Below are positions 30,071 to 64,000 of a stretch of 64,000 nt of DNA, in pieces; positions within the stretch are counted from its first letter, which is position 1, and every line of letters begins with the position of its first letter. The notes beneath the pieces are model-generated. The model did not search any database and was not told the DNA's origin. It saw nothing but the letters and a program-made list of their open reading frames with translations. The DNA comes from Pleurocapsa sp. FMAR1 (GTDB lineage: Bacteria; Cyanobacteriota; Cyanobacteriia; Cyanobacteriales; Xenococcaceae): assembly GCF_963665995.1 (NCBI RefSeq), contig NZ_OY762512.1, positions 1,302,001 through 1,366,000 on the forward strand, given 5' to 3'. The position numbers and the translations under genes were made by a program.

Positions 30071-31414
30071 CTACTGGTGTAGTTTTATTTCTAGCTGGTC
30101 TTGTATTTTGGAAGGTTCGTACACGGGCGCGATCGCACTTTTTTCAGGAGTTATTTGCCAGTCATAGTGACGCAGTAGCAAAGACATAAATATTTTCATT
30201 TCCATCTGGGCGAACTGATAACCCAGACACACATGAGAACCGCCTCCAAAACCAACTAGGGAAAAGGGATGCTGTTTGTCTTCTTCGCGGGGAGGGGCAA
30301 AACGATCTGGATCGAAAGAATCTGGGTTGGCATATATTTCTGGTAAGCGGTGAGTCAGCATGGGAGATACATCCACCATCCAGCCAGCAGGAATACGATA
30401 GCCATCGTACTCAATATCTTTGACTACACCGCGAGATATATTTTGTACTGGAGGATAAAGTCTTTCTACTTCTTTAAGAGCATAACCCAGGTTAGTAAAC
30501 TGTTTTAAATGAGATAGATGCAAAGGTTCATCGCCGACAACCTCTTTTTGTTCGTTAAGCAAACGTTCTTTCCATTCGGGATTAGCATTTAGTTCCAACA
30601 GTAACCAAGAAATTAAGACGGCAGGGTTTTCGTGTCCTGCAAACAAAACCATCAATAACTGGTCGATAATTTCCGTATCGCTTAATGGATCGCCATCTTC
30701 GGTAACAGAAGCCAAGAATAAGCCTAAAAAGTCTTGAGACTCTTTGAGATCGCCATTTTGTCTGCGAGTGGCTATTTTTTGCTGTAAAAATGTTTTCAGT
30801 TTACGACGCGCTGACTGAGAACGCCCATAAATAGTAAAGGGTAAGTCCAGATGTAATTTTGCTCTACGCCCAACCAACATAGTTAGAAAGTATTGAAGAG
30901 ATTCTGCAAACTCGGCTTTTGTTTCTGTACCCAAAACTAGCTGAAGTGCTACGGTTAGGGAAAATTCTGTAAAAGCGTCGATCGCGGGTAAAATTCCTTC
31001 AGTGGCTTTTTCTTGTAGGAAATTCTCGGCAAGCAGATGGATGGTATCAAAATAATTATTAAGTGCCTGTCCGTGCATTGCAGGATGGATCAGGCGACGA
31101 ATGGCTTTATGTCTTTTGCCATCTTGAAGCAGTACCCCGCTACCAAAAATCGGTTTGAGAAATATCCAACCTTGTTCTGCCGACAGATGATCTGCTTGAT
31201 CCATCAACACTAATTTATTGGCTTGGGTGCCGATCAAAAAAGCAAACTTTTTCCCAAATATGCGTGATTTGAAAACTGAACCATGACGCTGAAAACGCTG
31301 GCGATAAAACATTTCCTCTCCAGCAAAGAGTTCTTTGGTTTCGCCTTTAGAACCACCAAAACTTCCTGGCATTTCTTCGGCGGATTTTAGCTGCGATCTT
31401 TGTTGTAATACCAT
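30071..31414 (-). CDS. Cytochrome P450 monooxygenase
   Basis: A 447-residue soluble P450. The haem-thiolate loop is FSLVGFGGGSHVCLGYQFA near residues 380-398 with the axial Cys. The ExxR motif is LKEVERLYPP near 310 and the PERF-like segment is DPDRFAPP. It resembles the CYP120/CYP110-like cyanobacterial groups in general layout. The I-helix reads LFAGHENPAV, where the usual oxygen-activating Thr is Asn followed by Pro. It is the last gene of a minus-strand unit (ABM monooxygenase, two methyltransferases, P450), so it probably tailors the same aromatic product. No ferredoxin or reductase gene is adjacent. Confidence 0.9.
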   Translation of the reverse strand: MVLQQRSQLKSAEEMPGSFGGSKGETKELFAGEEMFYRQRFQRHGSVFKSRIFGKKFAFLIGTQANKLVLMDQADHLSAEQGWIFLKPIFGSGVLLQDGKRHKAIRRLIHPAMHGQALNNYFDTIHLLAENFLQEKATEGILPAIDAFTEFSLTVALQLVLGTETKAEFAESLQYFLTMLVGRRAKLHLDLPFTIYGRSQSARRKLKTFLQQKIATRRQNGDLKESQDFLGLFLASVTEDGDPLSDTEIIDQLLMVLFAGHENPAVLISWLLLELNANPEWKERLLNEQKEVVGDEPLHLSHLKQFTNLGYALKEVERLYPPVQNISRGVVKDIEYDGYRIPAGWMVDVSPMLTHRLPEIYANPDSFDPDRFAPPREEDKQHPFSLVGFGGGSHVCLGYQFAQMEMKIFMSLLLRHYDWQITPEKSAIAPVYEPSKIQDQLEIKLHQ

Positions 31415-31484
31415 TTATAGTTGTATTTATTAATTTTTACACGAGCGGTAATAAAAGTTACCCTCATTCTTGGTTAAAAGCTAC

Positions 31485-31530
31485 AAGCTAATAGCGGTGA
31501 GGCGACGCGGGGTCTCACCGCTATTAGCTT
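31485..31530. repeat. Long perfect hairpin between methyltransferase and P450 genes
   Basis: AAGCTAATAGCGGTGAG pairs perfectly with CTCACCGCTATTAGCTT across a 12-base loop: 17 base pairs. It lies in the 152-base gap between the methyltransferase stop codon and the P450 start. On the minus strand no T-run follows, so it may attenuate or stabilise the transcript rather than end it. Confidence 0.7.
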
Positions 31531-31566
31531 TATCAATACCGATTAATGTAAATTGAAGTAAATGTA

Positions 31567-32628
31567 TCAAACAGGTACAGCTTCAATAATGCTGTTTGCT
31601 GTTTGGGTGGGAATGATTCGGGCAATTTTAAAACCTGCTTTGACTAACAAATCCCGATATTCATCTTCTTTGCGTTCGCGCCCCCCTGGAGTAGTCAGTA
31701 GAGATTCTAGATCGATTAATTTACCCACAAAAGGTTCATTACCTTCAGGCATAATCATTTCTACTAGTAAAAGCTTTCCTGTGTCTGTCATCGCTTCGCG
31801 ACAGTTCTGAAGAATTTTTATTGCTTGTTCATCGTCCCAATTATGAATAACGAACATCAAAATGTAGGTGTCACCCCCACTAGGAACTGTCTCGACACAG
31901 TTGCCTGAAACTAGCTGACAGCGTTCTGTTAGCCCAGCTTGCTCGATCGCGGGTTGAGCAACAGCGATCGCACTTTCAAAGTCTAATAAGATTCCCTTCA
32001 TTTCTGGATAAGCTTTGAGCAAGGGAATAATTGTACTTCCCGCACCGGCAAAGATTCCTAGTTCTACTAATGTAGATGTGCTAGAAAAATCGTAGTTATC
32101 CATTAAAGAATTAGAGGCGCGACTAGAAATACTAACTTTAGAATTGCTGGCAGTTTCGGCTGCTTCGGGATTTAAATAATATTCAAACAAACCCTGTCCA
32201 AAAAGGCGATCGAATGCTGGCTTTCCAGTCTTAATACTGTAGGGAAGTTCTCCCCATACCTGCCAATGCCAGTCTTGTCCGAGGAATTTAATCGCATCGC
32301 GAAGTGAACCTGGGGTGTCACCAGCTAAATATTCAGCAGAAGGAGTTAGTTTAAACTTACCGTCATCGTCTTGGGCAAATATGCCGACACTTGCAAGCGA
32401 TCGCAATACTCGGTAAAGAGATGATTCGTGGGTTTGGGTAGCCTCTGCCAATTCTGCGCTGGTTTTTGCCCCATCGACCAATAAATCGGCAATGCCTAAC
32501 TCGGCTACCACATAAATGATTCTGGCGATACGAAACCCGCCCAAAAAACGTAACATGGCGATCGCAGGTGGTACATGGGACAATGCGCTAGGCTGTCTTG
32601 CCTTGGGAGTACTAGTCGTAGTTGTCAT
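31567..32628 (-). CDS. SAM-dependent O-methyltransferase-family protein (copy 1, altered motif I)
   Basis: A 353-residue member of the small-molecule O-methyltransferase family (dimerisation winged helix plus class I SAM fold). The N-terminal domain is seen in ARIIYVVAELGIADLL and LAEATQTHESSLYRVLRSLA; the C-terminal domain carries VIHNWDDEQAIKIL with the catalytic-type His, and VEMIMPEGNEPFVGKLIDL. The SAM motif I, normally DVGGGxG, reads ELGIFAGAGSTI, so cofactor binding may be altered. Start at ATG 32628 rather than an in-frame TTG at 32640. It follows copy 2 by 69 bases and belongs to the same transcription unit. The substrate is likely a phenolic ring. Confidence 0.85.
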   Translation of the reverse strand: MTTTTSTPKARQPSALSHVPPAIAMLRFLGGFRIARIIYVVAELGIADLLVDGAKTSAELAEATQTHESSLYRVLRSLASVGIFAQDDDGKFKLTPSAEYLAGDTPGSLRDAIKFLGQDWHWQVWGELPYSIKTGKPAFDRLFGQGLFEYYLNPEAAETASNSKVSISSRASNSLMDNYDFSSTSTLVELGIFAGAGSTIIPLLKAYPEMKGILLDFESAIAVAQPAIEQAGLTERCQLVSGNCVETVPSGGDTYILMFVIHNWDDEQAIKILQNCREAMTDTGKLLLVEMIMPEGNEPFVGKLIDLESLLTTPGGRERKEDEYRDLLVKAGFKIARIIPTQTANSIIEAVPV

Positions 32629-32673
32629 GTTTTGCTCCAATTAAAATTATTTTTTATACACACACATCATTCT

Positions 32674-32701
32674 GTAAGGGCGGTTTCAAAACCGCCCCTA
32701 C
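32674..32701. repeat. GGGCGGT-type palindrome
   Basis: AGGGCGGTTT, short loop CAA, AACCGCCCCT: a ten-base-pair GC-rich hairpin overlapping the stop codon of the copy 2 methyltransferase gene. It is one of a family of similar palindromes scattered through the accessory half of the window. Confidence 0.7.
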
Positions 32702-33756
32702 GGAATTGGTACAGCTTCAATAATGCTCATTGGCGACTTGGTGGGAATAATTCGCTTCACTTCAAAACCAGACTGGGCAAATAGTTCCTTGTATTCTTCG
32801 GCAGTGCGTTCGATCGCGCCTGGAGTCATAATCATTGCTTCCACGTCCAAGATTTTGGCTAAGGATGGTTCATTGCCTGGAGGTACAATCATCTCCACGA
32901 CTAAAAGCTTACCGTCACTGGCTATGGCTTGATGTATGTTGCTCAAAATCTGACCAGCCTTGGCATCGTCATAATCGTGAATCAAATTTTTGACTAGATA
33001 GGCATCTGCTTGGTCAGGAACAGACTGCCAAAAGTCACCAGCTATTAGTTCGCAGCGATCGCCTAAAGAATTCTCTTCAGCTACCGCTTCGGCTTTAGAT
33101 ATGCGGGATGCAGTATCAAAATGAATCCCCTTCAAGTCCTGATTTTTACGCAGGATAGAGGCAATCAGTTCGCCATCTCCTTGACCACCTGTGGCAATAT
33201 CCACCACCTGTTTAAAATTAGAAAAATCATAGCCTCCTAAGATAGAGCGATCGCTTAGAGTTAAAGCTCCCTTCATAGCTGCATCAAAGTCTTGGGCTAC
33301 ATCAGGATTTTGTTGATAATATTCTTCAAAATCCATGCCATGTATCTTTTCAAATGCCGAACCACCAGTTTTGACGCTGTGCAAAACATCTTGCCACATC
33401 TGCCAATGCCATGGAGTCCCCATGACTCTAGCATAGCCGTTTAGTGAACCAGGAGCATCAGACTTTAGTAAAGATGCTCTGGGGGTCAACTTAAAAGTGC
33501 GATCGTCTAATTCTTGAAAAATTTCAAAGCTAGCTAAGGTTCTTAATAGCCTATATAGGGATTGAGGATGGGTTGAAGTTTCTTCTGCTAATTCAGCGAC
33601 GCTTTTGGGCTTATCTTTTAATAAATCGGCAATACCAAGCTGCGCTGCTACTGAAATGCTCTGGGAAAGACGGTAAGCATTCATCATTTGCAGAATCATG
33701 ATCTGCGGTGGCATTCCCTTCTCTTTCGGTGGTTTGGTCTGTTGGTTTGTAGTCAT
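32698..33756 (-). CDS. SAM-dependent O-methyltransferase-family protein (copy 2, altered motif I)
   Basis: A 352-residue paralogue of its neighbour. The dimerisation domain reads QSISVAAQLGIADLLKDKP and the catalytic domain has NLIHDYDDAKAGQIL, VEMIVPPGNEPSLAKILD and a C-terminal RIIPTKSPMSIIEAVPI that is shared with the other copies. Motif I is VVDIATGGQGDGELI, containing an extra residue pair relative to the classic DVGGGxGxL. I set the start at ATG 33756: the stop of the upstream ABM gene and this ATG are separated by a single base, so the two are translationally coupled. This makes joint action on one substrate likely. Confidence 0.85.
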   Translation of the reverse strand: MTTNQQTKPPKEKGMPPQIMILQMMNAYRLSQSISVAAQLGIADLLKDKPKSVAELAEETSTHPQSLYRLLRTLASFEIFQELDDRTFKLTPRASLLKSDAPGSLNGYARVMGTPWHWQMWQDVLHSVKTGGSAFEKIHGMDFEEYYQQNPDVAQDFDAAMKGALTLSDRSILGGYDFSNFKQVVDIATGGQGDGELIASILRKNQDLKGIHFDTASRISKAEAVAEENSLGDRCELIAGDFWQSVPDQADAYLVKNLIHDYDDAKAGQILSNIHQAIASDGKLLVVEMIVPPGNEPSLAKILDVEAMIMTPGAIERTAEEYKELFAQSGFEVKRIIPTKSPMSIIEAVPIP

Positions 33757-33757
33757 A

Positions 33758-34102
33758 TTATGCGTTTTTGGTGTAGCAAACTTCGTAGAGTACGGGAGAA
33801 GATTCAGCGATCGCACCTATCTTAGGCATATGTTCTCGAGCTTCGGGATTTTGGAAAATGCCACGGAAGTCTTCAACGCTTTTCCATTGGGCATAGTTTG
33901 TTACCCATTCCCCATCTAAGCTTTTATGAATGTTGGCACTTATAAACCCTGGTAGTTTCCCCATAGTTTCTTCAGTGGCATCGACTAGCATATCTACTAA
34001 CTGCTGCTGATTCTCTGGCTTGACCTTGAAAACGTTAACTAAAGTAACTAAGTCTGCGTCTAGAGAAATTGTAGTTTTTGATTCTGATGAAATTACACTC
34101 AT
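33758..34102 (-). CDS. Antibiotic biosynthesis monooxygenase (ABM) domain protein
   Basis: A 114-residue single-domain protein with the dimeric ferredoxin-like ABM fold: VTLVNVFKVKPENQQQLVDM at residues about 20-40, GKLPGFISANIHKSLDG at about 50-66 and WVTNYAQWKSVEDFRG after that. Such cofactor-free monooxygenases (ActVA-Orf6, TcmH) oxidise phenolic or anthrone rings to quinones in aromatic polyketide pathways. Here it opens a minus-strand unit with two O-methyltransferases and a P450, which strengthens that reading. The ATG at 34102 is preferred over an upstream in-frame codon at 34144. Some ABM proteins instead degrade haem or act as stress proteins. Confidence 0.8.
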   Translation of the reverse strand: MSVISSESKTTISLDADLVTLVNVFKVKPENQQQLVDMLVDATEETMGKLPGFISANIHKSLDGEWVTNYAQWKSVEDFRGIFQNPEAREHMPKIGAIAESSPVLYEVCYTKNA

Positions 34103-34993
34103 TATATTTTTTCGGATAACTAATAGATTTAGATCGAGGGACATTTTTTTGGTTCATAATCATTAGTCAATGATTTACTAATAAAATGCCCAGAAATTAT
34201 TTAAATGTATTGACCAACTGTTTGAGAAGGAGGCGATGCTAGAGCGTGTATCTAGCACTTCAGCCGTCCATCAGGCTTCGTCCGTTTAAAGCGGAGTAAT
34301 CTCTGACTTGAGTTTGGCATACAACAACTTTCATCATGTATAAATAATCGAGTCTTTATGTTTAAATTCTGTTTGAGTTTTGTTCAAAGACATAAATATA
34401 ATATTTAAACCTGATATTTTATTGCTTACAAATTAGTAGCTTGTCAAAATACATTTGTATTTTTATGTACATGATAAAAGCGATCGCGATTTAAAAATCA
34501 TAAGCTGGTAAAAAATGCAAGCCAACAGCCTATGAAGCTGGTAAAATTTGCAAGATAAAGGCTACAGGGAAAATAATAGATAAGATTAAATCGCTAAATA
34601 CTGTTGCTAGCTTATGATAGTTAAATGTGATAATCTTAATTTAAGCTATTGGTAAACAGAGTTTTATGGCAAGATTTTCTTTATGTACGCAATAGGACAT
34701 AGGCTTATGTACGTAATAGAACATAAATCTAAATTTGAAATAGAACCTAACTTTTTTCAGCAATAATTACTGTGTTTAAACAGACTGTTTAAGTATTTGT
34801 AGGTAACTATGATTCATGAAGGAGAAAGAAATCTCTTTGGTTAATTAAGCAGCATTTTTGATATATAAATTTAATAAAAATAAAATATATTACCTATGCT
34901 ATTTTGTTGAATTTTAAACTGTAATAGTGTAATTATTAAGATAGATTAAGTAACCAAATAATTAAAGATAAATAGCTAACCACAGCAAAAAAG
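34103..34993. promoter_or_regulatory. Large divergent regulatory region (ABM unit / NACHT gene)
   Basis: An AT-rich gap of 891 bases with no convincing gene. It contains a small hairpin TGCTAGA-GCGTGTA-TCTAGCA at 34237-34257, a 33-base-spaced repeat of AAGCTGGTAAAA at 34502 and 34535, and three 24-base tandem repeats at 34681-34752. The size and the repeats suggest complex control of the tailoring-gene unit, the NACHT gene, or both. Confidence 0.5.
34681..34752. repeat. Three tandem 24-base imperfect repeats upstream of the NACHT gene
   Basis: TTATGTACGCAATAGGACAT at 34681, TTATGTACGTAATAGAACAT at 34705 and a diverged copy containing AATAGAACCTA from 34729. The shared core is AATAGRACMTA at exact 24-base intervals. 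Iterated sites of this kind often bind regulators; the NACHT protein's own N-terminal helix-turn-helix is one candidate. Confidence 0.6.
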
Positions 34994-37522
34994 ATGGTAC
35001 ATATTTCCAAGAGATCCTTAAAGGCTTCAAAAGAGGGAATTCAGTTGGCTAGTCGAGCAATACTTAGATTTCCTACAAAAATAGATTTTGCAGCAGAACT
35101 AGAAATTTCCCGTTCTACCGTACAGAACTTTTTTGCAGGTAAACCTGTGGGTAGAGAAAATTTCCATAAAATTTGTCAAGAACTCGATCTGCTTTGGCAA
35201 GAAGTGGCGGAACTTCCCCCAGAAGTAGCAAAATTACCAAAACCAACAGCAATAAGTAATGAAGTAACTGAAAATAACAAGATCGCTGTTAATATCGATC
35301 GACAGGGCGATGGCTTTAGTCCCATTCCATCATCCATGAGTGCAGATTTAAACGGCGCAGTTGAAACAATCTCTGACTCTGTAGTCGAGCAATTTCGGAA
35401 TTTGGCTAGAGGTAGAATTTGGTCAATGTGTGGGACGATGCGAGTATTAGATATGTCTTATCCTAAACTTACTGAGGATATATATGTTGATACTAAGGTC
35501 TACTTAAAAATAAAAGGTAGGCGGAGGCTGAAAGTTGACGATCTCCATTTATCTCAGCTTGTTGTTAATCCTCAGTCTTGTGATTTTAAGTTCAATGACG
35601 AGCAGCCAAAACAGGTAGAAATACTTGGTGACAAAGCAGCAATATGCTATTCCAAGTTAATTGTTTTGGGTAAGCCTGGTTCTGGGAAAACCATGTTTTT
35701 AAAACATTTGACTTTACAATGTCTTGAAGGTGGATTTCAAAGCGATCGCATTCCTATATTTGTTCCCTTAAGAGATTTTGTAGCTTACACATCATCTTTA
35801 AATTTGGTTGACTATATATCTAGTCAGTTAGCTGAAGGTTGTCAAATAGAAATTAATTTGGTTAGACAGTTATTAAATCGAGGCAAATTTCTAATCGTTC
35901 TCGATGGACTAGATGAAGTCCAAATTTCCAATCGTAGTGTCGTTTGCCAGCATTTACGCAGATTTACGAAATGGTTTCCCCACAATTATTACATCATTAG
36001 CTGTCGTCACGGCGTACAGTGCTGCAATTTTGAACAGTTTACCGAAGTAGAAATTGCTGATTTTGAACCCAAGCAAATTCAAGATTTTGCCGTTAAATGG
36101 TTCGATCCTGAAGATACTCAACTAAGTTACGACTTTCTAGCCAAAGTAATCAAGAATAATTCAATTCAAGAGTTTGCGACTAACCCACTATTATTGGTTC
36201 TGTTGTGCATTGTGTTTGAAGAATCAGCCGATTTTCCCATTAGCCGTGCTGAAATATATGGGGAAGCTTTGGATATCATGCTCAGACAGTGGGATGCAGA
36301 GCGGGCGATAGAAAGGGAGCAAGCGGGGGGATTGACTATAGAACAAGAAAAAGAATTACTTTGTAAAGTTGCTCGCAGAACTTTTGAGCGCAAAGAATAT
36401 TTCTTCAAAGAAATAGAGCTAAAATTTTATATTGCCGACTATGCAAGTAACCTGAGCCAATTAGATATATCCCGAATTGATGCCCAGAAAGTTCTCAAAT
36501 CGATTGAAGCCAAACATGGTTTGTTAGTAGAACAAGCCAAAAAGGTTTATTCATTTTCTCATTTAGCATTTCAAGAATATTTAACAGCTAAAGAATTTGT
36601 TTCTCCCTGCGATTTAGCTGTATCTATAGCGATGTTAAATCATTTGGTTAGCCACCTAACAGACGAGAGATGGCGCGAAATCTTCTTGTTGGTGGCAGAA
36701 ATGTCACCTCAAGCAGATCGATTATTTACCCTAATAAGTCAACAAATCGATGACTTTGGCGATCGCTGTCCCCAGATTGCAGCGTTTTTGGAATGGGTAA
36801 ACTGTAAAGCTGAGTCGATAATTATTCCCAGATTAGAGCATTCTCAAGAGAGAGTCGATCTAGCCAAAGTTCCTGGCGGTTTAAAAGTAACTGGATGCCA
36901 AAAAGAAGTATTTCGAGCATTTTACTTTAGTTTGGGATTAGGTCAGATTTCAGATAGTATCGGCACTAACTTTTCTTTAATGTTAAAGCTCGATCCCCAC
37001 TTTGGTGAGGGGATCGCTGTCAATGCAGACTTAGCGTTAGATTTGAGCTTATTTAATCTTTTGAACTTGATGCCCATTTTAGAATCAATACATAATCCCG
37101 CACTAATTTTGCAACGTTCGCTCAAGCGAGCAATTAGTCATGCTATAAAAATTGAGCCAGAGCTAACTAAAGAATTACAAAGAATGAAACAAAAAATTAC
37201 TACTTCTCAAGAAAATGCAACTCAGTTTTGGCTGTGGTGGCATCAAGAGGGAAAAGCTTGGTTTAGCGATCTCAACTCCATGGCAATGAAGTATCGTAAT
37301 ATAGCTCATCAATGGAATTTTAATTCTCAGCAGCAACAAGTTCTCCAACAATATTTTCAGGCTAATATATTGTTATTGGATTGTCTCGATCACAGTAGCT
37401 ATGTAAGTTCTGAAGTTAGAGACAGTATTGGGCATCAATTATTAAAGCCTCCTAAAAGCAAAACAAATAACCTGCAAGACACCCAACAAATGTTGCAACC
37501 AAACATGGCTTATATTGTCTAG
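34994..37522 (+). CDS. NACHT-domain NTPase with N-terminal helix-turn-helix
   Basis: An 842-residue STAND ATPase of a cyanobacterial type. Residues 10-65 resemble a helix-turn-helix (DFAAELEISRSTVQNFFAGK). Residues about 135-195 contain the conserved linker GRIWSMCGTMRVLDMSYPKL and KGRRRLKVDDL that precedes NACHT in many cyanobacterial homologues. NACHT follows: Walker A GKPGSGKTMFLKH near residue 225 and Walker B FLIVLDGLDEV near 300. The remaining 400 residues are helical with no WD40 or TPR repeats that I recognise. Such proteins are signal-sensing switches, either regulators or anti-phage conflict proteins. It is 22 bases upstream of the AcpS-like gene and divergent from the tailoring genes. 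Confidence 0.85.
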   Translation: MVHISKRSLKASKEGIQLASRAILRFPTKIDFAAELEISRSTVQNFFAGKPVGRENFHKICQELDLLWQEVAELPPEVAKLPKPTAISNEVTENNKIAVNIDRQGDGFSPIPSSMSADLNGAVETISDSVVEQFRNLARGRIWSMCGTMRVLDMSYPKLTEDIYVDTKVYLKIKGRRRLKVDDLHLSQLVVNPQSCDFKFNDEQPKQVEILGDKAAICYSKLIVLGKPGSGKTMFLKHLTLQCLEGGFQSDRIPIFVPLRDFVAYTSSLNLVDYISSQLAEGCQIEINLVRQLLNRGKFLIVLDGLDEVQISNRSVVCQHLRRFTKWFPHNYYIISCRHGVQCCNFEQFTEVEIADFEPKQIQDFAVKWFDPEDTQLSYDFLAKVIKNNSIQEFATNPLLLVLLCIVFEESADFPISRAEIYGEALDIMLRQWDAERAIEREQAGGLTIEQEKELLCKVARRTFERKEYFFKEIELKFYIADYASNLSQLDISRIDAQKVLKSIEAKHGLLVEQAKKVYSFSHLAFQEYLTAKEFVSPCDLAVSIAMLNHLVSHLTDERWREIFLLVAEMSPQADRLFTLISQQIDDFGDRCPQIAAFLEWVNCKAESIIIPRLEHSQERVDLAKVPGGLKVTGCQKEVFRAFYFSLGLGQISDSIGTNFSLMLKLDPHFGEGIAVNADLALDLSLFNLLNLMPILESIHNPALILQRSLKRAISHAIKIEPELTKELQRMKQKITTSQENATQFWLWWHQEGKAWFSDLNSMAMKYRNIAHQWNFNSQQQQVLQQYFQANILLLDCLDHSSYVSSEVRDSIGHQLLKPPKSKTNNLQDTQQMLQPNMAYIV

Positions 37523-47602: not shown

Positions 47603-47606
47603 AACC

Positions 47607-48293: not shown

Positions 48294-48347
48294 ATTGATT
48301 ATTGGTCACATATTCAAAGCTACAAAAATTACTACAGAAAATTAATC

Positions 48348-55662: not shown

Positions 55663-55701
55663 TATTATCAATTGTCCATTGATAAAAGGTGACAAACTAT
55701 G

Positions 55702-55959
55702 TAGGGCGTGTCATCAACATGGCGATTGCACAAGCTGCTTGCGAAGCAGCGTGCCTCGCCATCAATTAGAAAAAAGCACTTTTTTCGCCATTTTAACGAC
55801 CTACTGCGTCGAAAAATAACGGGCGACACAAGGTCTTGAAATGAATTCAAGACACGCGCCCTCACCTCCGTAGCCCTGCTATGCAGAACATTTTTCTCCT
55901 TGTATCTCGCTAAAATTAGCTTCAAAAGCATTCTTCCCTCCAAATGATGACACGCCCTA
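55702..55959. mobile_element. 258-base MITE with perfect 15-base terminal inverted repeats
   Basis: TAGGGCGTGTCATCA at 55702-55716 is the exact inverse of TGATGACACGCCCTA at 55945-55959. If the terminal TA is a target duplication, the inverted ends are GGGCGTGTCATCA. The interior has palindromes (CAAGCTGCTTGCGAAGCAGC) and no conserved frame; a 91-codon minus-strand frame runs across it and out of the end, so it is chance. It sits between the alpha/alpha-barrel and cellulose-synthase genes. Confidence 0.85.
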
Positions 55960-55960
55960 G

Positions 55961-58135
55961 CTAATTATTAAAATTTCTAGTTAAAGGATAAATACGAAAG
56001 ATTGAGCTAATCAAAGACCAGACAGATTTAACTTCACTGATTGATTGTTTTTGCCATCGATTTGGTTGACCAAAAATAAAGCTGACTAATTTTCTTTGTC
56101 TGAGCAGATCTAATTCAATAAAATCGATTTCTGCTAATAAGTTGCTTTGTCGATCTAAATTAACTTTCTCGATTAAAACAGGAGCATTAAATAAGCCAAT
56201 CTCAGGAATGTCTAAAATAGCAATTCGCTCTACAGCACTCAAAGAAGTGAGATTATTAAGATCAAAAGAAGTTGTTGCGCCATGCTCAGATAAGCTCTGG
56301 GTAGTGCCGTCAAGTATTCTATCCTCAAACATTAGTTGACAATTTAGCTGACAGGGAAAGCGAATTGCTAAAACTTTTTGGGGTACGTCGATCGCAATCA
56401 AGATTGCAATAAATAAAATGGCGGTGTTATAAATAGCCCAAAACAAACCAATACCAATTGAATCTGAATCTTGTTGCCATTGCCAGTTAAGAAACTGAGT
56501 GCCAATAGTTACTAAATAAAGCAGAAACAAGATTATTAAAGGGCTGGCAGCTTGCCAATTTAAGACGGCTTTTTTTGATAATACTCCTTTAGGAGTGACT
56601 TTAAAACCTTTACCAAAAGGATTAATTAAAGTATTGATCACCATAAAAGCGATGGGAAAGGCAATAATTGCTCCGTATACTTCCGCCCAAAAAAACGAAC
56701 GTCTGCTACCATTTAGCCAAGCGAAAACTACGGCAAAAGTAAAGTAATAAGGCATGAAAAAGAACACCAGTTCGCTAAAGCTAGCTCGAATAGGTGCAAT
56801 TCCCCACCAAAAGTACGCTAGAGGTAAACACAGAAAAAGGACATAGGCAGCAGATTGAAACCAGTAGAGAATGCCCAAGCCGTGAATAAAACGCTGTAAC
56901 CAGTTTAAACCAGGTAAGGTAAAAGGATTAGCTCGACAAAATAAAGTTTGAATCGTTCCCTGTCCCCAACGTAAACGCTGGTCAATATAGCCACCAATAT
57001 TTTCCGCTGCTAGTCCTGCTGAGAGAGATTCATTTAGATAAATAACGCGATCGCCTATTGCCTGAATTTTGAGAGAGGTTACAAAGTCTTCAGTTAGGGT
57101 TTCGGTAGGAATACCGCCGATCTTGTCTAAAACTTGACGACGCACCACAAAAGAAGAACCACAGCAGATAACTGAATTAGCCGCATCACGACCTGAAAGA
57201 ATCGCCCCAAAAAAGATATCTTCGTCGTTGGTAATAACGCTTTGTAAGCCCAAATTGTGTCGGATGGGGTCGCTATTATAATAAGCTTTATTAGTTTGTA
57301 CTAGAGCAATATCTGACTGTTGAAAAAAGCCAATGGTGCGGGTCAGAAAATTGCGTGTAGGTACAAAATCGCAGTCAAACACAGCTACTAATTCGCTCTG
57401 AATTTGTCCTAGAGCGTGATTAATATTACCTGCTTTAGCGTGACGGTTATCGGGACGAGTAATATAATAACAGCCCAATTCTTGAGCCAAATCTCTCATT
57501 TCCCTTCGGCGGAGGTCATCGAGGAGATAAATTCGCTTATGAGCATAGTCCATTCCCTGACAGCCAATAATTGTTCGGCGCAGCATAGCAGCAGGCTCGT
57601 TATAGGTAGGAACGAGAACATCTACCCAGGGTGTATATTCCCCTTGCAATACTGCTTGAGACCTAAAATCTGCCTCAATAGTGCGATCGCGTTCAAAAAC
57701 AGCCAGCAACAGCGAAGAAATGCCCAAAATCCAGCCAAAAATCTCTAAGACCAAGAGCAAAATACTGAGGGTGCCGTTGAGCAAGTTATCTAAATTGAGG
57801 GTGGCAAACAGTCGCCATAAGAAATAGCGTCCAAGTAACAATAGCAAAATGCCCATTACCAGCAATCGCAACCATTTTGGCGGATTGACTGGATATAGCT
57901 GAATAATGAGAAAAGTAACTGCAATCCCAACCAAACTAGGTAAAAGCAAAGAACTGGTTTCAGGTGCAACGCTGCCAAAAGTTAGCTGATTACCCTGCCA
58001 AAAACTAGACAGTTCGGCAGTTGTTCCCCACCAATTTATTTTTGTCAACAGCAGAAACAAAATTCCTCCTGTCGCCATAACTATTATTCCCTGTTCGATC
58101 AATGTCCACCAACTAGCTTTTAGTTTATTTGTCAC
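55961..58135 (-). CDS. Cellulose synthase catalytic subunit-like GT2 (BcsA-type)
   Basis: A processive glycosyltransferase of 724 residues, inner-membrane bound. After two N-terminal helices comes the GT2 domain: LVPTYNEPAAML near residue 172, VFDCDFVPTRNFL (DxD) near 255, the TED general base in ETLTEDFVTSLKIQ near 345 and QRLRWGQGTIQ (QxxRW) near 385. Further membrane helices and a PilZ-like domain (about 585-680) follow. In the PilZ region the first Arg of RxxxR is missing and DLSxGG reads SLSEHG, so cyclic-di-GMP control may be weak or lost. No bcsB is present. Its start overlaps the upstream HlyD gene by eleven bases. Confidence 0.9.
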   Translation of the reverse strand: MTNKLKASWWTLIEQGIIVMATGGILFLLLTKINWWGTTAELSSFWQGNQLTFGSVAPETSSLLLPSLVGIAVTFLIIQLYPVNPPKWLRLLVMGILLLLLGRYFLWRLFATLNLDNLLNGTLSILLLVLEIFGWILGISSLLLAVFERDRTIEADFRSQAVLQGEYTPWVDVLVPTYNEPAAMLRRTIIGCQGMDYAHKRIYLLDDLRRREMRDLAQELGCYYITRPDNRHAKAGNINHALGQIQSELVAVFDCDFVPTRNFLTRTIGFFQQSDIALVQTNKAYYNSDPIRHNLGLQSVITNDEDIFFGAILSGRDAANSVICCGSSFVVRRQVLDKIGGIPTETLTEDFVTSLKIQAIGDRVIYLNESLSAGLAAENIGGYIDQRLRWGQGTIQTLFCRANPFTLPGLNWLQRFIHGLGILYWFQSAAYVLFLCLPLAYFWWGIAPIRASFSELVFFFMPYYFTFAVVFAWLNGSRRSFFWAEVYGAIIAFPIAFMVINTLINPFGKGFKVTPKGVLSKKAVLNWQAASPLIILFLLYLVTIGTQFLNWQWQQDSDSIGIGLFWAIYNTAILFIAILIAIDVPQKVLAIRFPCQLNCQLMFEDRILDGTTQSLSEHGATTSFDLNNLTSLSAVERIAILDIPEIGLFNAPVLIEKVNLDRQSNLLAEIDFIELDLLRQRKLVSFIFGQPNRWQKQSISEVKSVWSLISSIFRIYPLTRNFNN

Positions 58136-59501
58136 CGAACAACCCCCCTCTCATGTCACGCTTAAAAACTACTTCCGCACTACGTCCTACGTCACAGAAC
58201 TGTGTCGAATTAACCTCAAGCGGTCGATCTAGCTTGACTCTTACTGCTACCTGACGGCGGAGGCTATCTGGTGGCGGTACGGCAATATCTCCTCCTGTTT
58301 GCACTCGTCCCGAACCTGCCCGAACCGACTCAACTTTTCCACTGACCAAATCACCATTTTCTGCACCCAATAAACGCACCTTGACAGGTTTACCTGGATA
58401 AATTTTTCCTGCATCCCGTTCGGAGAAAAAGGCTTCTACCCAAAGGTTTTGACAGTTTAATACCTCCAAAATGGGAACACTCGCTTCAGCGTATTCGCCC
58501 GATTTCGATTCCACCGACCAAATAGGACCACTAGTGGGACTAGGAATCTTAGCCTGTTGATTGAGTGATAACTGGCGATCGATCTTGACTAATTCGGCTT
58601 CAGTAGTTTGCTGGCGCACCTTTGCTTCGGCAAGTTGCTGCTGCATATCATTGATGTCTGTACTAAGTTCTCGCTGGCGAATCTCTGAATATCCTAGAGT
58701 ACGAGAACCATCCAACTGTAATCCTGCTTGGGCAGCTTTTACCTTTTGTTCGGCTTGATTTACCTGCGATCGCGCATTTTTTACTTCGTTTTGGGCGCGA
58801 TTAAAACTCAACTGCGATCTTTCTAACTTATCTTGAGAAATCACTCCCTGTTTAGCTAAATTAGCGATCCGTTCTAGCTCTTTTTTGGCAGTTTTGGCAG
58901 CAAATAAAGTTTGATCTAGCTGATTTTTAGCAATATCTATTTGTTGACCTTCATAATCCACTCCCAAGTCTTTTTGACTATTAGCTTCCTGGTTTAATTT
59001 AGCGATGGATTGACGGCGATCGCCAATTTGTGCCTCAACACCGAGTACAGTTTGTTTTGCCTGTTCGATCTGGGAAATAAGATTTTGCTTGTTTACTTCA
59101 AGTTCACTGCTTTGACGTAAATTTTTTACCGTACCGATGTTTTCCCCGACAGAAATAGACTGACCTGGTTGGAGATTTTTTAGCTGTAAATCACCAGCCA
59201 GAGGATTACGAACTTTGACAATTTCGGCATTAATAAATGCCTGACGACTACGCACATTTGAATAGTGCTGTTGTAGCATAAGTCCAACTGCTGTGGCTAC
59301 ACCCAATGCCATCACTAAACGTAAAGCTCGAAATGCTTTTACCTGAACGGGAACTGATGTAGGTGGTAAAGGTTGGTATGCAACCAGAGGTAGTTCCTCT
59401 AATCTGGCTAGAGATCTCTTAGACTCTGATTCGGGCAATTCGGGTAATTTCTTGGATGATTTACGATCTGACAAACTTTCTTTTCTCCACAAATAATTCA
59501 A
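58125..59501 (-). CDS. HlyD-family periplasmic adaptor of the polysaccharide module
   Basis: A 458-residue membrane fusion protein. One transmembrane helix (ALRLVMALGVATAVGLMLQQ) is followed by a lipoyl half-domain (VRNPLAGDLQLKNLQPGQSI), a long coiled-coil hairpin of about 200 residues and the second half-domain (IPSPTSGPIWSVESKSGEYA), then a beta domain (YPGKPVKVRLLG). It overlaps the cellulose-synthase gene, so the pair is co-translated. Cyanobacterial cellulose systems are known that use an HlyD-type protein with a TolC channel in place of BcsB/BcsC. This pair fits that design. Confidence 0.85.
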   Translation of the reverse strand: MNYLWRKESLSDRKSSKKLPELPESESKRSLARLEELPLVAYQPLPPTSVPVQVKAFRALRLVMALGVATAVGLMLQQHYSNVRSRQAFINAEIVKVRNPLAGDLQLKNLQPGQSISVGENIGTVKNLRQSSELEVNKQNLISQIEQAKQTVLGVEAQIGDRRQSIAKLNQEANSQKDLGVDYEGQQIDIAKNQLDQTLFAAKTAKKELERIANLAKQGVISQDKLERSQLSFNRAQNEVKNARSQVNQAEQKVKAAQAGLQLDGSRTLGYSEIRQRELSTDINDMQQQLAEAKVRQQTTEAELVKIDRQLSLNQQAKIPSPTSGPIWSVESKSGEYAEASVPILEVLNCQNLWVEAFFSERDAGKIYPGKPVKVRLLGAENGDLVSGKVESVRAGSGRVQTGGDIAVPPPDSLRRQVAVRVKLDRPLEVNSTQFCDVGRSAEVVFKRDMRGGLFGDK

Positions 59502-59519: not shown

Positions 59520-60512
59520 TTACACTGCCGTAAAACGACGGTGTCTGCGCTGACTGCCTTCCTCGGACAAACAATAATGTGCATCAAAAAACTTTAGTTG
59601 TCGATAGAGCATTGATACCTGGGGCATCTGTACCCCTGCCTGCCAAGCGGTTCGTAGGGGGTTGCCAAAAATAGCCTCTACCTCTAGCGATCGCCCTTGA
59701 TTGAAATCGATTTTCATGCTGGTTTCGTAGTCTTTCATGGCAGCACTTTGCTTGATTCGTTTTTGAACAAACAGTTCGGGAATATAGCGACCATAAGCCT
59801 TGGCTGCGATAACTATTTCCTGCATTAACTGTTCGATAGAAGTACGAACGTGAGCATCATCAAACATTTCTTGATTGGTAGAATTTAGAACTACCGAAAG
59901 ACCATTAACAGGGATATTGCAGATTAACTTTTGCCAACGAGCCAAAAATAAGTCTTCATGTAGCTGAATCATCACGCCAGCAAGAGCAAAGTCGGCTGCA
60001 ATCTGAGACATTCTAATACTGACTCCCGCAGCACGATAGCCAGTCACATAATCTGCTAAAGTAATCAAACCGTAGTCAAGGTGGCGAATATGTCCCGCAC
60101 CTAGCTTATAATTCAAGGTAAAACAAACGCCACCCATCACGCGATCGCTACCTACAATCTCAGCAATCTCCTCTTCCATACCCCAACCATTTTGCAGCAC
60201 TAGCACCACGCCGTTATCTTTAAGAACTTGAGGCAAGATTTGGGGCAATAAATGATTACTGGTAGTTTTGAGAGCAACAATAACTACATCGCACGGAGGC
60301 ATCTGGCTAGCTTCGTTGTAAGCTTTGACAGAGGGTAAAGCGAAATCGCCGTCGGGAGATTCAATAATCAATCCGTGTTGACAAACGTGGTCAAAATCAC
60401 GATTTAACAGAAAATGTACGTCAAAGCCCGCTCTTTGTAAGCAAGCACCGTAGAAAGCGCCGATCGCCCCAGCACCAATAATGGCGTAGCTACGTCTAAA
60501 GTCATTTATCAT
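59520..60512 (-). CDS. Ketopantoate reductase (PanE/ApbA)-like NADPH oxidoreductase
   Basis: A 330-residue protein with an N-terminal Rossmann fold, YAIIGAGAIGAFYGACLQRA (GxGxxG), and VIVALKTTSNHL as the second nucleotide-contacting strand. The C-terminal helical domain contains ICNIPVNGLSVVLN, corresponding to the family's catalytic Lys/Asn region (RWQKLICN). PanE reduces 2-dehydropantoate to pantoate for CoA synthesis; paralogues serve as ketoreductases in other pathways. Two ATG options exist; 60512 avoids a repeat-rich leader. It is between the HlyD and alpha/beta-hydrolase genes in a same-strand run, so a tailoring role is possible but unproven. Confidence 0.75.
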   Translation of the reverse strand: MINDFRRSYAIIGAGAIGAFYGACLQRAGFDVHFLLNRDFDHVCQHGLIIESPDGDFALPSVKAYNEASQMPPCDVVIVALKTTSNHLLPQILPQVLKDNGVVLVLQNGWGMEEEIAEIVGSDRVMGGVCFTLNYKLGAGHIRHLDYGLITLADYVTGYRAAGVSIRMSQIAADFALAGVMIQLHEDLFLARWQKLICNIPVNGLSVVLNSTNQEMFDDAHVRTSIEQLMQEIVIAAKAYGRYIPELFVQKRIKQSAAMKDYETSMKIDFNQGRSLEVEAIFGNPLRTAWQAGVQMPQVSMLYRQLKFFDAHYCLSEEGSQRRHRRFTAV

Positions 60513-60554
60513 TGAACATTTACCATTGATCATTGAGCATCTAACGCTTATTCC

Positions 60555-61343
60555 CTACTTTTTACTTCCCAATGACACGCCCAAGCAAAATTCTTCAATC
60601 TCTCGCGCTACTTTAGCTGGTTGTTCTACGTGTAAATAGTGACCTGCATCGGCAATATTTACCAAATGGGCATTAGGCATCTGTTTGGCTAACAATTTTC
60701 CCTTGCGGGGAGAAATTATTACATCATCACCGCCAGTTAAAATTAAGGTAGGGATTTGCACAGAAGCGATCGCACTACCTAAATCGATTTCACTAATACC
60801 CATAAAGTCATTTGCATCCTGGCTCAAACGAGTGTGTTTAAACTCATTTAAAACCAAATTTTTAACCTCTTCTGGTATTTTGGGGGCAAAACTTTGCCCT
60901 AGGGTTGCCAAATCCCATTCTCCACTAGTTGCCGCTGCCCAAAAGTCGGGATGAAGCTGAATCTTGGCTGCTGTGGTCATCAAGATTAGTCGTTTAACCT
61001 GCTGAGGATAAGACAAGGCAAACTGTAGCCCGATCAAACCGCCCAATGATTGACCCACATAGCAAATTGGCTGTTCGATATTTATTGCCGTCAAGAAAGC
61101 TGCTAAAAAATCGGCAACTTCTGTCAGGGAATTAGGAACTGTTCCAGATGTGTCTCCATGTCCTGGCAAGTCTACGGCTATAGAACAAATACTACTATCT
61201 AATTGAGACATCATTGGCAACCAATGACGGCTACTGCCCCCTGCCCCGTGTACCAGCAACATCAAAGATTTTGTATCAGGACTAGGAAATCCTTGAGGAA
61301 TTTGATAATTGACGTTGTAATCTGCAACTTTAATTATTGGCAT
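60555..61343 (-). CDS. Alpha/beta-hydrolase
   Basis: A 262-residue hydrolase with the full catalytic machinery: LVHGAGGSSRHWLPM (oxyanion HG motif) near residue 30, nucleophile elbow CYVGQSLGGLIGLQF near 95, acid ILTGGDDVIIS near 210 and His in ADAGHYLHVEQP near 237. No cap-domain feature allows the substrate to be named. It follows the salicylate synthase gene on the same strand and could act as a thioesterase, esterase or C-C hydrolase in the aromatic pathway. ATG 61343 is preferred to an in-frame TTG 30 bases upstream. Confidence 0.8.
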   Translation of the reverse strand: MPIIKVADYNVNYQIPQGFPSPDTKSLMLLVHGAGGSSRHWLPMMSQLDSSICSIAVDLPGHGDTSGTVPNSLTEVADFLAAFLTAINIEQPICYVGQSLGGLIGLQFALSYPQQVKRLILMTTAAKIQLHPDFWAAATSGEWDLATLGQSFAPKIPEEVKNLVLNEFKHTRLSQDANDFMGISEIDLGSAIASVQIPTLILTGGDDVIISPRKGKLLAKQMPNAHLVNIADAGHYLHVEQPAKVAREIEEFCLGVSLGSKK

Positions 61344-61451
61344 AACAATGAAAGGATGAGGGATAAAGGACAAAGGCGCACTTCCGTATGTATAAGGAAA
61401 GAAGTGCAGCTATGGCAAGAAAGCTAAGAAAACTACCCACTACTCCCGTAC

Positions 61452-61498: not shown

Positions 61499-62830
61499 CT
61501 ACTTCTCTTCAGATTCCATCACGATGTTAGACAAGATAGTGTTCATTTTGTTGACTGATTCAATGTATTCTTTTTCGGGAACAGATTCACCGACGATACC
61601 CGCCCCAGCATTTAGATACACGCTGTCACCATATTGATAAGCAGAGCGAATGGCGATCGCAATATCTGCTGTACCGTCGCTATCTACCCAGCCAATACCA
61701 CCTGCATAGATTCCTCTAGGTCGATCTTCAAGGCGATCAATCCACTCTAAAGCCAGTTTTTTATTAATTCCTGAAACGGTAATCCCAGGAAATAGCACCT
61801 TCAAAGCATCCCACAGAGATTTGTCAGTTTTAAGCTGTCCGCCAACCCGCGAGGAAAGATGTTGAACGGTACGATATTTTTTAACTTCCATGAAGTCAAA
61901 TACCTGTACGGTTTCTGGTTGACAAACTTGCGCTACCTCGTTTTGGGCTAGCCAAACAGATAAGGCGTGTTCTTTAACTTCTTTAGCATCGGTAAACAGT
62001 TCATCATGCAGCAAAGCATCTTTGGCAGGATCGGCCTCGCGATGTCTGGTTCCCGCTAAAGGATTAGTAATTACAAATCCGCTAGCATTGACCTCCATCA
62101 AAATCTCAGGACTAAAACCAACCGAACGCACATCTCCTAACTTAAAACAGTAAGAACGAGCCGAGTTGTTGATCGCAGCACCGACATTATAAGTACCTAG
62201 TACATCTAAGTTACCTTTGACCTCTACCGAACGAGAAATAATAGCTTTGTGTAATTCGCCCCGTTGAATTGCCGAAACTAGATCGCCGACTCTTGATTCA
62301 TATTCGTGGTTGTCCCCTGGTTCTACCTTTGGAGGGGTTACTTTGTATTCTGGCTGTTGAACTTCAACAGATATTGCCTCTAATAATTTCGAGGGAGATT
62401 TGATGCTACGAATATGTACTCCTTTATCTGTAATTCGTAGCTCAATTTCTGGCACAAAAAAGTACAGCATTGGCTGCTTGATCGCCTTTGAATATGCCGA
62501 ATAGAACCGAGCAATATCAAAACCGACATAGCCATAGGCAGTCCAATTTTCTATGGGTAGATGACTCAACACCGACTCTACCTGCTTGAGCGGATCGCTT
62601 ACTGTTTCAGAATAAGTTTCACCTAAATAGGTACTGTAGATTGTGTCCGTTCCTACTGCCACATCAGCTAAGGGATTGGCAACAATACGCACCTCGCTTT
62701 CCTGCTCATACAGCATATAGTCAGTAAATATACCAGCTGCGATCGCATTTCTAAGCAGCATTTGGGGGTCAGTTTTACCTGGAACAAAGACTTCGTGATA
62801 GGTCTGTAAATTATCGGCTAGTAAATACAT
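61499..62830 (-). CDS. Salicylate synthase (MbtI/Irp9-type chorismate enzyme)
   Basis: A 443-residue chorismate-utilising enzyme. LHKAIISRSVEV near residue 195 carries the Lys that activates water in isochorismate-forming members. NPLAGTRHREAD, DAKEVKEHALSV, YRTVQHLSSRVGGQL, FPGITVSGINK and RPRGIYAGGIGW follow in the order and form seen in MbtI and Irp9, which convert chorismate through isochorismate to salicylate. Mg-binding Glu residues are present in KEVKEHAL and ESVPEKEYIESVNK. The NPLAGTR and VQHL forms distinguish it from TrpE and PabB. No amidotransferase is adjacent, which fits. Next to an aromatase/cyclase it likely makes a starter unit or siderophore precursor. Confidence 0.85.
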   Translation of the reverse strand: MYLLADNLQTYHEVFVPGKTDPQMLLRNAIAAGIFTDYMLYEQESEVRIVANPLADVAVGTDTIYSTYLGETYSETVSDPLKQVESVLSHLPIENWTAYGYVGFDIARFYSAYSKAIKQPMLYFFVPEIELRITDKGVHIRSIKSPSKLLEAISVEVQQPEYKVTPPKVEPGDNHEYESRVGDLVSAIQRGELHKAIISRSVEVKGNLDVLGTYNVGAAINNSARSYCFKLGDVRSVGFSPEILMEVNASGFVITNPLAGTRHREADPAKDALLHDELFTDAKEVKEHALSVWLAQNEVAQVCQPETVQVFDFMEVKKYRTVQHLSSRVGGQLKTDKSLWDALKVLFPGITVSGINKKLALEWIDRLEDRPRGIYAGGIGWVDSDGTADIAIAIRSAYQYGDSVYLNAGAGIVGESVPEKEYIESVNKMNTILSNIVMESEEK

Positions 62831-62883
62831 GGTTGGTTGGTTAGTTGTTAGTTGTTAGTCGTTAATTAAGGAAAAAAATATTA

Positions 62884-63378
62884 TTAAACGGCAACTGTTT
62901 CTGGTTTTGATTCTTCGACACTCCAAGCTTCAACTGCTTCTTTAATTGCCTGCATCTGAACTTTGGTGTTGCGATTAAGGAATGACTCCATTTTTTCTAC
63001 TGGCCATGCACCTTCTGCTGGCGCGAATTTCTGCTCCCAGGTCATAACTGTACCGACGTTTTGTGGTAGCTCCTCATAAGTCCAGTGGATCTTCATCATC
63101 TCAAATGGAAAAGCCTGCTTGACTCGTTGCGCTTCGGCTTTTTTGCCTGGTTTATCGATGATGCGGGTGGAAACCCACGTGCGAGAAGGATGATCTTCTT
63201 CTGGAAAAGTAGTTAGCTGAAATGTTACTTTGTTGCCGTCTCTTTCTAAAACTTTGGCTTCTTCATACTCAGTAAATAGCTGAGGCCATAGTTCTATATT
63301 ATTAGTCAAATCAAAAACAGTATCAAAGTCTTTGAGGATGACAATGGTATTGTGAGTGTATCCTGGTAATTCTGACAT
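62884..63378 (-). CDS. Polyketide aromatase/cyclase (SRPBCC, WhiE/TcmN-type)
   Basis: A 164-residue START/Bet v 1-fold protein. The sequence GYTHNTIVILKDFDTVFDLT, NNIELWPQLFTEYEEAKVLE, TWVSTRIID and LNRNTKVQMQAIKEAVE follows the pattern of aromatic polyketide aromatase/cyclases: NxVExWPxLFxEYxxAEVLER and the C-terminal NRNSRVQMxxIKE are their hallmark. These enzymes fold and dehydrate poly-beta-keto chains on the ACP in type II polyketide synthases. The gene lies between the salicylate synthase and the PF04199 cyclase on the same strand. Single-domain size fits the monodomain aromatases. I consider this the strongest single clue to the pathway. Confidence 0.85.
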   Translation of the reverse strand: MSELPGYTHNTIVILKDFDTVFDLTNNIELWPQLFTEYEEAKVLERDGNKVTFQLTTFPEEDHPSRTWVSTRIIDKPGKKAEAQRVKQAFPFEMMKIHWTYEELPQNVGTVMTWEQKFAPAEGAWPVEKMESFLNRNTKVQMQAIKEAVEAWSVEESKPETVAV

Positions 63379-63496
63379 TATATTAATTACTCCAGTTTAA
63401 AATTTATTAATTGAAAAAAAGCAGAGGTTTGGGGGACTTAGGAAATGGGGTAGGGGTAAAGGTAAAACTTCCTACTTTCTACTCCCTACTCCCTAC

Positions 63497-64000
63497 TTAG
63501 GGAACTATTCCTACCGCCCGAACCCAGCTAGCGTCTAGGTCTTTGATCTTCAAGGGAAAACAGGATACTTGAAAGCCAGTAGAGGGCAAACTATCTAGAT
63601 TTGCCAAGCGTTCGATCTGGATGTATTCCCGTTCTCGTCCGTAAAAGTGAGCGGGCCAAAGGTTAGAGCGATCGCCTGTTTTCCAGAAGTCTTCAAGCAT
63701 GGTTACAAAGGGGCGATCAAACCCATAGGTGTCGATGCCGATCACTTTGATTTCTTGTTTTACCAGCCACTCGGTAGCCTCACGGCTCATCCCAGGAGCG
63801 TCGCTAAAGTATTCTCGTTTGCCCCACAGCTTATCTGTTCCCGTCCAAAGTAAAACTATATCTAAGGGTTTTAGTTCGTGCTGGGCTTGCTGGAGAGCCT
63901 TTTGAATATCCTCAACGGTGATAAATTCTCCCGCTTTTTTGTGAGTCAGATCCAAACGGACTCCAGGACGATAAAACCAATCTAGCGGTAACAGGTCTAC
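63497..64000 (-). CDS. PF04199-type cyclase (N-terminus beyond window)
   Basis: The frame stays open from the stop at 63497 to the window edge, so the gene starts beyond 64,000; a TTG at 63955 is internal. The visible 167 residues include PLDWFYRPGVRLDLTHK, PLDIVLLWTGTDKLWG, FSDAPGMSREATEWLV and VIGIDTYGFDRPF, which match the metal-dependent cyclase/kynurenine formamidase fold, where GVRLDLTH and the GxD segment form part of the active site. Members are found in aromatic polyketide clusters as well as in tryptophan breakdown. The neighbouring aromatase favours the polyketide role. Confidence 0.8.
   Translation of the reverse strand, partial: VDLLPLDWFYRPGVRLDLTHKKAGEFITVEDIQKALQQAQHELKPLDIVLLWTGTDKLWGKREYFSDAPGMSREATEWLVKQEIKVIGIDTYGFDRPFVTMLEDFWKTGDRSNLWPAHFYGREREYIQIERLANLDSLPSTGFQVSCFPLKIKDLDASWVRAVGIVP

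Follow-up and report, generated by a model that had tools for sequence, protein, structure and literature searches.

Can a cyanobacterium build an aromatic polyketide on salicylate with a type II polyketide synthase (PKS)? This question was raised by the right edge of a 64,000-nucleotide stretch of Pleurocapsa sp. FMAR1 (contig NZ_OY762512.1, positions 1,302,001 to 1,366,000; the whole stretch is called the window and its own numbering is used below). A first-pass annotation of these letters had placed a salicylate synthase (SalS), an aromatase/cyclase and a PF04199 cyclase consecutively on the minus strand at this edge, and had predicted that a ketosynthase (KS-alpha), a chain-length factor (CLF), an acyl carrier protein (ACP) and an aryl ligase would lie past position 64,000. 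The three genes were confirmed by matches to TIGR03494, PF03364 and PF04199, and the four predicted ones were found on the same strand, 1.0–6.0 kb beyond the edge. We consider, with a probability of roughly 0.92, that this cyanobacterial cluster encodes a thermorubin-type pathway for a type II polyketide primed with salicylate.

Organization and conservation of the PKS run

The window is part of a single-contig chromosome of 5,429,540 bases, and the fetched continuation overlapped the window end letter for letter. From upstream to downstream, the minus-strand run was KSα-CLF-ACP-AcpS-ligase-cupin-CMD-PF04199-aromatase-SalS-α/β hydrolase, with the following genes (positions above 64,000 are window-equivalent and lie past the window edge):

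68680-69987, minus strand, KS-alpha
67439-68650, minus strand, CLF
67114-67392, minus strand, ACP
66642-67196, minus strand, AcpS
65050-66621, minus strand, salicyl ligase of the benzoate-CoA-ligase family (TIGR02262, 496 bits against a cut-off of 375)
64599-65036, minus strand, cupin
64263-64598, minus strand, CMD protein
63497-64000, minus strand, 3' part of the PF04199 cyclase (E 2.9e-36), the full gene reaching 64318
62884-63378, minus strand, single-domain SRPBCC aromatase/cyclase, WhiE/TcmN-like (PF03364, E 9.4e-10)
61499-62830, minus strand, SalS (TIGR03494, 351 bits against a cut-off of 325)
60555-61373, minus strand, alpha/beta hydrolase, last gene of the run (PF00561/PF12697)

The order of these 11 genes was common to Laceyella sacchari DSM 43356 (34–64% identity) and to eight other cyanobacterial genomes with long enough contigs, and a ninth contig of 5.6 kb carried the first four genes of the run. 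With its order shared by two phyla, the run is not a chance arrangement. The alpha/beta hydrolase was counted in it because it directly followed SalS in Laceyella and in eight of the nine other cyanobacterial loci, the 5.6 kb contig ending before SalS.

A CLF orthologue was present in 3 of 386 genomes drawn from the phylum (74–100% identity; next listed match, 38%) and in 10 of 388 drawn from the order at E ≤ 1e-85 (69–100%), the two draws overlapping. These ten genomes comprised three of the window's genus (its own among them), six of one other family and one of a third. A scan of named genomes, which covered close relatives only and may omit records of this genome or one near it, matched a Myxosarcina metagenome-assembled genome (MAG) and Pleurocapsales LEGE 10410 (89%), a Chroococcidiopsidaceae MAG (76%) and Gloeocapsopsis crepidinum LEGE 06123 (75%); beyond the phylum it matched L. 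sacchari DSM 43356 (61%). The KS/CLF tree covered six of the nine other cyanobacterial clusters, G430, G419 and G453 having been dropped to reduce the number of close relatives (G and L numbers are our labels for genomes and loci), and its outer joins carry a long-branch flag.

Motifs of the core enzymes

SalS and the aryl ligase lay within this one run, each above its NCBIfam cut-off. SalS was the sole one above the cut-off among four TIGR03494 matches in the genome, its nearest solved structures were the salicylate synthases MbtI and Irp9, and its motifs HKAI(I/L)SR and FSPEI were kept in all ten sequences compared. KS-alpha carried STGCTAG, NAHGSSTP and TKSMIGH, that is, the active-site Cys and both His motifs, and these were shared by the orthologues compared (Cys in 11/11, with neighbouring changes in G641). 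At the corresponding place the CLF had Arg instead of Cys (DRASGA), as did 11/11 of the CLFs compared and that of a Priestia plasmid, the Apilactobacillus one having Lys. Gln at this place is typical of actinobacterial aromatic PKSs (act, tcm); it was found in the act CLF (1tqy_B) and in one CLF of a Streptomyces plasmid, and the window CLF lacked it.

The ACP, of 92 residues, matched no Pfam family and gave weak NCBIfam ACP matches only. Its LDSTE motif, which holds S34, recurred in the ACPs of the related loci, and Q31, S34 and T35 had the same numbers as those printed for gloACP, the carrier protein of the Gloeocapsa system described below. Among the cyclization enzymes, the PF04199 cyclase kept the motif HMGTH(I/V)DAPIH in 10/10 sequences compared and the aromatase was 58% identical to the Laceyella gene. 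The G531 ligase row of the motif alignment was a wrong paralogue and was left out of the counts.

Residues 113, 116 and 120 of the CLF (L009:6440-7651), when aligned to the act CLF (1tqy_B), were Trp-Cys-Phe, a triad kept in 10 of the 11 CLFs compared and in Priestia. The chain-length gate of the act CLF we take to be F109/T112/F116. As a rule, small gate residues allow longer chains, and a bulky gate Trp together with a long product fits poorly with that rule.

A probable tailoring module

The left half of the shown sequence, with a cytochrome P450, two O-methyltransferases (OMT), an antibiotic biosynthesis monooxygenase (ABM) protein and an exporter, looks like a second module of the cluster. 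Its genes were:

30071-31414, minus strand, cytochrome P450 (PF00067, E 2.1e-69)
31567-32640, minus strand, O-methyltransferase 1, OMT1 (PF00891, PF08100)
32698-33816, minus strand, O-methyltransferase 2, OMT2 (PF00891, PF08100)
33758-34144, minus strand, ABM protein (PF03992, E 7.1e-10)
45225-50387, plus strand, HlyD, FtsX-type permease, ABC ATPase and TolC-like export set, DevBCA-like (PF16576, PF02687, PF00005, PF02321)

The P450 had relatives of 67–82% identity in seven of the nine other KS-CLF genomes, against a best value of 59% in the 378 genomes without KS-CLF; of the remaining two, G641 had a relative at 47% only and G530 none at E ≤ 1e-110. In seven other cluster genomes OMT1 adjoined the P450, ABM counterparts (67–85% identical) stood beside OMT2, and HlyD, permease and ATPase genes were near the tailoring genes. 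P450, OMT1, OMT2 and ABM recurred, together with the nearby HlyD, permease and ATPase genes and an RTX-repeat gene, in G531, G430, G419, G441 and G453. The distance from P450 to KS-alpha was 20–27 kb in these five and 37 kb in the window genome, and the draft genomes G070 and G005 had the tailoring genes on contigs separate from the PKS run. The window's order, P450-OMT1-OMT2-ABM, was also that of G531 and G070, and five genomes of the other family showed P450-OMT1-further OMT-ABM-OMT2. Within the genus, OMT2 had relatives of 72–73% identity in the two other cluster genomes and, beyond these, matches of 42–45% only. KS-CLF and P450 were both present in 3 of the 13 genomes of the genus and both absent from 10 at the cut-offs used, two of these ten being 81–82% complete.

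A decayed copy of the locus was found in a congener, G488 (L134:12093-15444). Its flanking genes, encoding MFS, TPR, glycosidase-like, cellulose-synthase-like (CesA-like), HlyD, ketopantoate-reductase-like (KPR) and hydrolase proteins, kept the window's order. SalS was cut to about residues 140–440 and KS-alpha to residues 118–338, with a DDE transposase gene between them, and the genes expected in that interval had no match in this stretch. The G488 genome gave no match to CLF (E ≤ 1e-85), P450 (E ≤ 1e-110) or OMT2 (E ≤ 1e-60), and a piece of a NACHT gene was kept at a contig end. This joint loss of core and tailoring genes is what a shared pathway predicts, in one case only.

Proposed pathway and alternative explanations

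The homologous PKS of Gloeocapsa sp. PCC 7428 (gloPKS) has been reconstituted in vitro by Li et al. (2025), whose text notes its likeness to thermorubin (PMC11744666). According to the same text, the cognate ligase charged a doubly altered ACP with the salicyl starter, and extension by 11 malonyl units gave C29H20O10 and C29H22O11 (m/z 529/547; PMC11744666). The salicylate priming proposed by the first-pass annotation is thus demonstrated in vitro for a homologue. By analogy, SalS would convert chorismate into salicylate, which the benzoate-CoA-ligase-family enzyme would activate with ATP and load on the phosphopantetheine arm of the ACP, placed on Ser34 by the cluster AcpS. KS-alpha/CLF would then add about 11 malonyl units, giving a C29 poly-beta-ketone. 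Folding, aromatisation and release would be the task of the SRPBCC aromatase, the PF04199 cyclase, the cupin, the CMD protein and the hydrolase; ABM and P450 would oxidise the product and the O-methyltransferases would methylate it, with export by the HlyD/ABC/TolC set or by an MFS pump. Priming and 11-fold extension are modelled on the in vitro work with the Gloeocapsa homologue, and the later steps are predicted from protein families.

Several points weigh against this predicted pathway. In the text of Li et al. (2025), gloPKS without salicylate turned malonate alone into C24/C26 products (dodeca- and tridecaketides) in vitro (PMC11744666), so that salicylate is a presumed starter in vivo. 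In the same work, wild-type gloACP was not converted to the holo form by its cognate phosphopantetheinyl transferase (PPTase; PMC11744666), so that the role given to AcpS is a putative one. The first-pass annotation had associated a Rieske oxygenase gene and an AcpS-like gene with the P450, OMT and ABM genes; all of them passed the Pfam cut-offs, but membership of the Rieske gene was unsupported, as it had no match in ten related stretches. A third O-methyltransferase (OMT3) was not conserved with the cluster, and its closest relative seen, at 81%, was in G454, a genome with no KS-CLF at E ≤ 1e-85; these two genes were for those reasons not counted as core. Finally, the count that favours the pathway, a P450 of at least 65% identity in 8 of the 10 KS-CLF genomes against none of the 378 others (388 genomes of the order; Fisher p about 4e-15), has limits: its cut-off was set once the list had been seen, related genomes are not independent, p ignores phylogeny, and no more than four candidates per listed genome were scored.

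The alternative that survives best is that two unrelated clusters are neighbours here, the right one holding the PKS core and the left one encoding a P450/OMT/ABM pathway of its own. The gap of 20–37 kb between P450 and KS-alpha, with exporter, glycosyltransferase and other genes in between, would suit it, and so would the location of both genes on different contigs in the two drafts. However, the restriction of the P450 to KS-CLF genomes in the order and the paired presence and absence of both in the genus argue for one cluster, and we regard two as unlikely.

It is still less probable that the type II cassette uses acetate or another aryl acid as its real starter, with salicylate as a side substrate or accessory. 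Such a starter would agree with the synthesis from malonate alone by gloPKS and with plasmid cassettes of Priestia and Apilactobacillus that keep the gene order, no SalS being found in the stretches compared. Nevertheless, SalS was kept in Laceyella and in the eight other cyanobacterial loci with enough contig, and the Gloeocapsa ligase (gloSCL) loads salicylate onto gloACP bearing two changes, as described in the text of Li et al. (2025; PMC11744666).

That SalS feeds a siderophore assembly of nonribosomal peptide synthetase (NRPS) and type I PKS like that of anachelin, its place beside polyketide cyclases being incidental, is hardly credible: SalS enzymes 60–65% identical and ligases of the same family do stand beside NRPS-type genes, as annotated, on Pseudanabaena and Chroococcidiopsis plasmids, a pairing published for anachelin in the available part of PMC4247773, but here SalS lies inside a type II run whose order is kept in nine other loci across two phyla, and the four condensation-domain matches of the genome, which bear on the siderophore NRPS named by the first-pass annotation as the contrary case, all lie outside the window and the adjoining 37 kb, at distances from SalS of about 100 kb and more.

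Exporters and genes of uncertain membership

Other genes in or next to the cluster were:

59520-60533, minus strand, KPR-like gene (PF02558/PF08546)
71323-72276 (window-equivalent), plus strand, malonyltransferase-like gene (PF00698), divergent from the PKS run
39585-40694, minus strand, OMT3, membership uncertain (PF00891)
34994-37522, plus strand, NACHT NTPase, membership uncertain (PF05729 and PF22727)
37545-37943, plus strand, putative second AcpS-like (phosphopantetheinyl transferase) open reading frame (ORF) (PF01648, E 6.6e-9)

The KPR-like gene followed the hydrolase in seven cyanobacterial loci and was unmatched in the stretches of Laceyella and G530. Within the genus (E ≤ 1e-20) it was found only in the three cluster genomes and in the decayed G488, and it is a possible tailoring reductase. 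The NACHT NTPase is possibly a regulator. Eight other cluster genomes have it close to either the tailoring genes or the PKS run, but a role specific to the cluster is weighed against by its widespread family, with relatives in 51 of the 388 genomes of the order. The second AcpS-like ORF had a counterpart beside NACHT in G531 and G070 only. It was rejected as the PPTase of the cluster, since the window genome, the eight other full cyanobacterial loci and Laceyella have a stronger candidate between the ACP and ligase genes.

Four export systems had been counted by the first-pass annotation. This number is probably too high: two MFS genes and the HlyD/permease/ATPase/TolC-like set stand as exporters, but the second HlyD gene (58125-59501) adjoins the CesA-like glycosyltransferase gene. 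Between the TPR and KPR genes, glycosidase-like (named by eye, with no Pfam family), CesA-like and HlyD genes occupied positions 54322-59501, and the same place in G488. This block had no match in the related cluster loci compared and is a neighbour rather than a part of the cluster.

Two further genes were observed around these clusters. An ORF of 171 aa with a Type ISP C-terminal domain (PF18135; L009:9620-10135) was near cluster or tailoring genes in seven other cluster genomes; within the genus, identities of at least 56% were found only in the other two cluster genomes, with matches of 43–46% elsewhere. In seven other cluster genomes, KS-alpha had an MTHFR-like gene as its immediate upstream neighbour (at L062:16149-17057 and in six further loci; the G430 copy matched PF02219), and G488 kept a fragment of it. 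The window genome has its one match to PF02219 elsewhere and none at this place. This gene is possibly linked to methyl supply for the O-methyltransferases.

Comparison with known systems

After Li et al. (2025), the window is another locus of an already published pathway type and is not unprecedented (PMC11744666). The first-pass annotation had called such systems rare in cyanobacteria; the genome counts given above agree with this, although a cyanobacterial example had already been published. The window run shares with gloPKS the phylum, KS-CLF, ACP, in-cluster PPTase and salicylate:CoA ligase. G441 has the same run as the window (CLF 75%, KS-alpha 81%), but its ACP has 80 residues, as does gloACP, whose printed numbering ends at 80 (PMC11744666), against 92 in the window. 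The window also differs from it in having no MTHFR-like gene upstream of KS-alpha, and its Rieske gene and second AcpS-like ORF were unmatched in the 80 kb of G441. The window genus falls in another family than G441; in the NCBI taxonomy, PCC 7428 belongs to Chroococcidiopsidaceae, Myxosarcina to Pleurocapsaceae. An identity of the window with the PCC 7428 locus was rejected on the grounds of the 89% orthologues in Myxosarcina/Pleurocapsales, the other family and the different ACP length.

In the main text of Li et al. (2025) the words methyltransferase and P450 occur nowhere, and its Figure S1 may show tailoring genes (PMC11744666). The co-occurrence of the tailoring module, the decayed copy and the SalS-ligase pair common to anachelin-like clusters were not met in that text or in the parts of the other literature compared. 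A KS-CLF catalogue lists Cyanobacteria among 14 phyla in its available part (PMC10132072). The available text of a 2025 review has no occurrence of cyanobacteri- or Gloeocapsa, and that of a 2014 phylum-wide survey covers type I and type III PKSs, its passages on type II naming no type II PKS. Among the literature matches listed, judged by title and start of abstract, there was no other report of a salicyl-primed type II PKS in a cyanobacterium.

Anachelin-type clusters share with the window a SalS (60–65% identical) and a ligase (59–63%), but they use an NRPS and type I PKS assembly, with no CLF match in the stretches compared. Such clusters (L114, L115 and L135) were seen on the Pseudanabaena and Chroococcidiopsis plasmids and probably in G554, where a 1005-aa and a ketosynthase-like ORF were named by eye and from weak matches. 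The SalS tree, with 6 of its 11 inner branches open, is compatible with either the cyanobacterial type II or the anachelin-type enzymes as the older. The ligase tree groups the two plasmid enzymes together (84/84) within a cyanobacterial set of 11 rows (83/91) and likewise allows either direction of exchange.

Plasmids of Priestia megaterium and Apilactobacillus kunkeei carry KS-alpha, CLF, ACP, methyltransferase, ligase, cupin, CMD and cyclases in the same order, with CLFs of 51% and 43.5% identity, respectively. The Priestia cassette (L111:8659-20712) is on a plasmid typed as mobilizable, and the Apilactobacillus plasmid, pPKS, has been described as a putative polyketide plasmid in the available part of PMC9648514. 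Both cassettes differ from the window run in showing no SalS in the stretches compared.

The closest system outside the phylum is that of Laceyella sacchari DSM 43356, which has the same 11-gene order, including SalS, ligase, cupin, CMD, PF04199, SRPBCC and α/β hydrolase genes (CLF 61%, KS-alpha 64%). McCord et al. reportedly described the thermorubin cluster of this species in 2022, and thermorubin is a ribosome-binding antibiotic. Salicylate is given as its starter in the available text of the 2025 review. The Laceyella DNA differs in an extra ORF (a methyltransferase, by eye) between ACP and AcpS and in other upstream genes, and in 21 kb it had no match to the P450, OMT and ABM genes of the window. 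Since the tailoring genes differ, the predicted end product is likely to be other than thermorubin. At even odds, at least two cyanobacterial families share unisolated, oxidised and multiply O-methylated thermorubin-like polyketides, the SalS and ligase pair has moved between type II PKS and anachelin-type clusters, and the ABM/P450 module turns a shared C29 core into a product unlike thermorubin. The question of the product is directly testable, because one homologue is active in vitro and its host is culturable, according to the text of Li et al. (2025; PMC11744666). Actinomycetes are the main known source of type II aromatic polyketides; this conserved cyanobacterial set, with a tailoring module tied to its core, points to a compound class not reported as isolated in the literature compared and related to a ribosome-binding antibiotic.

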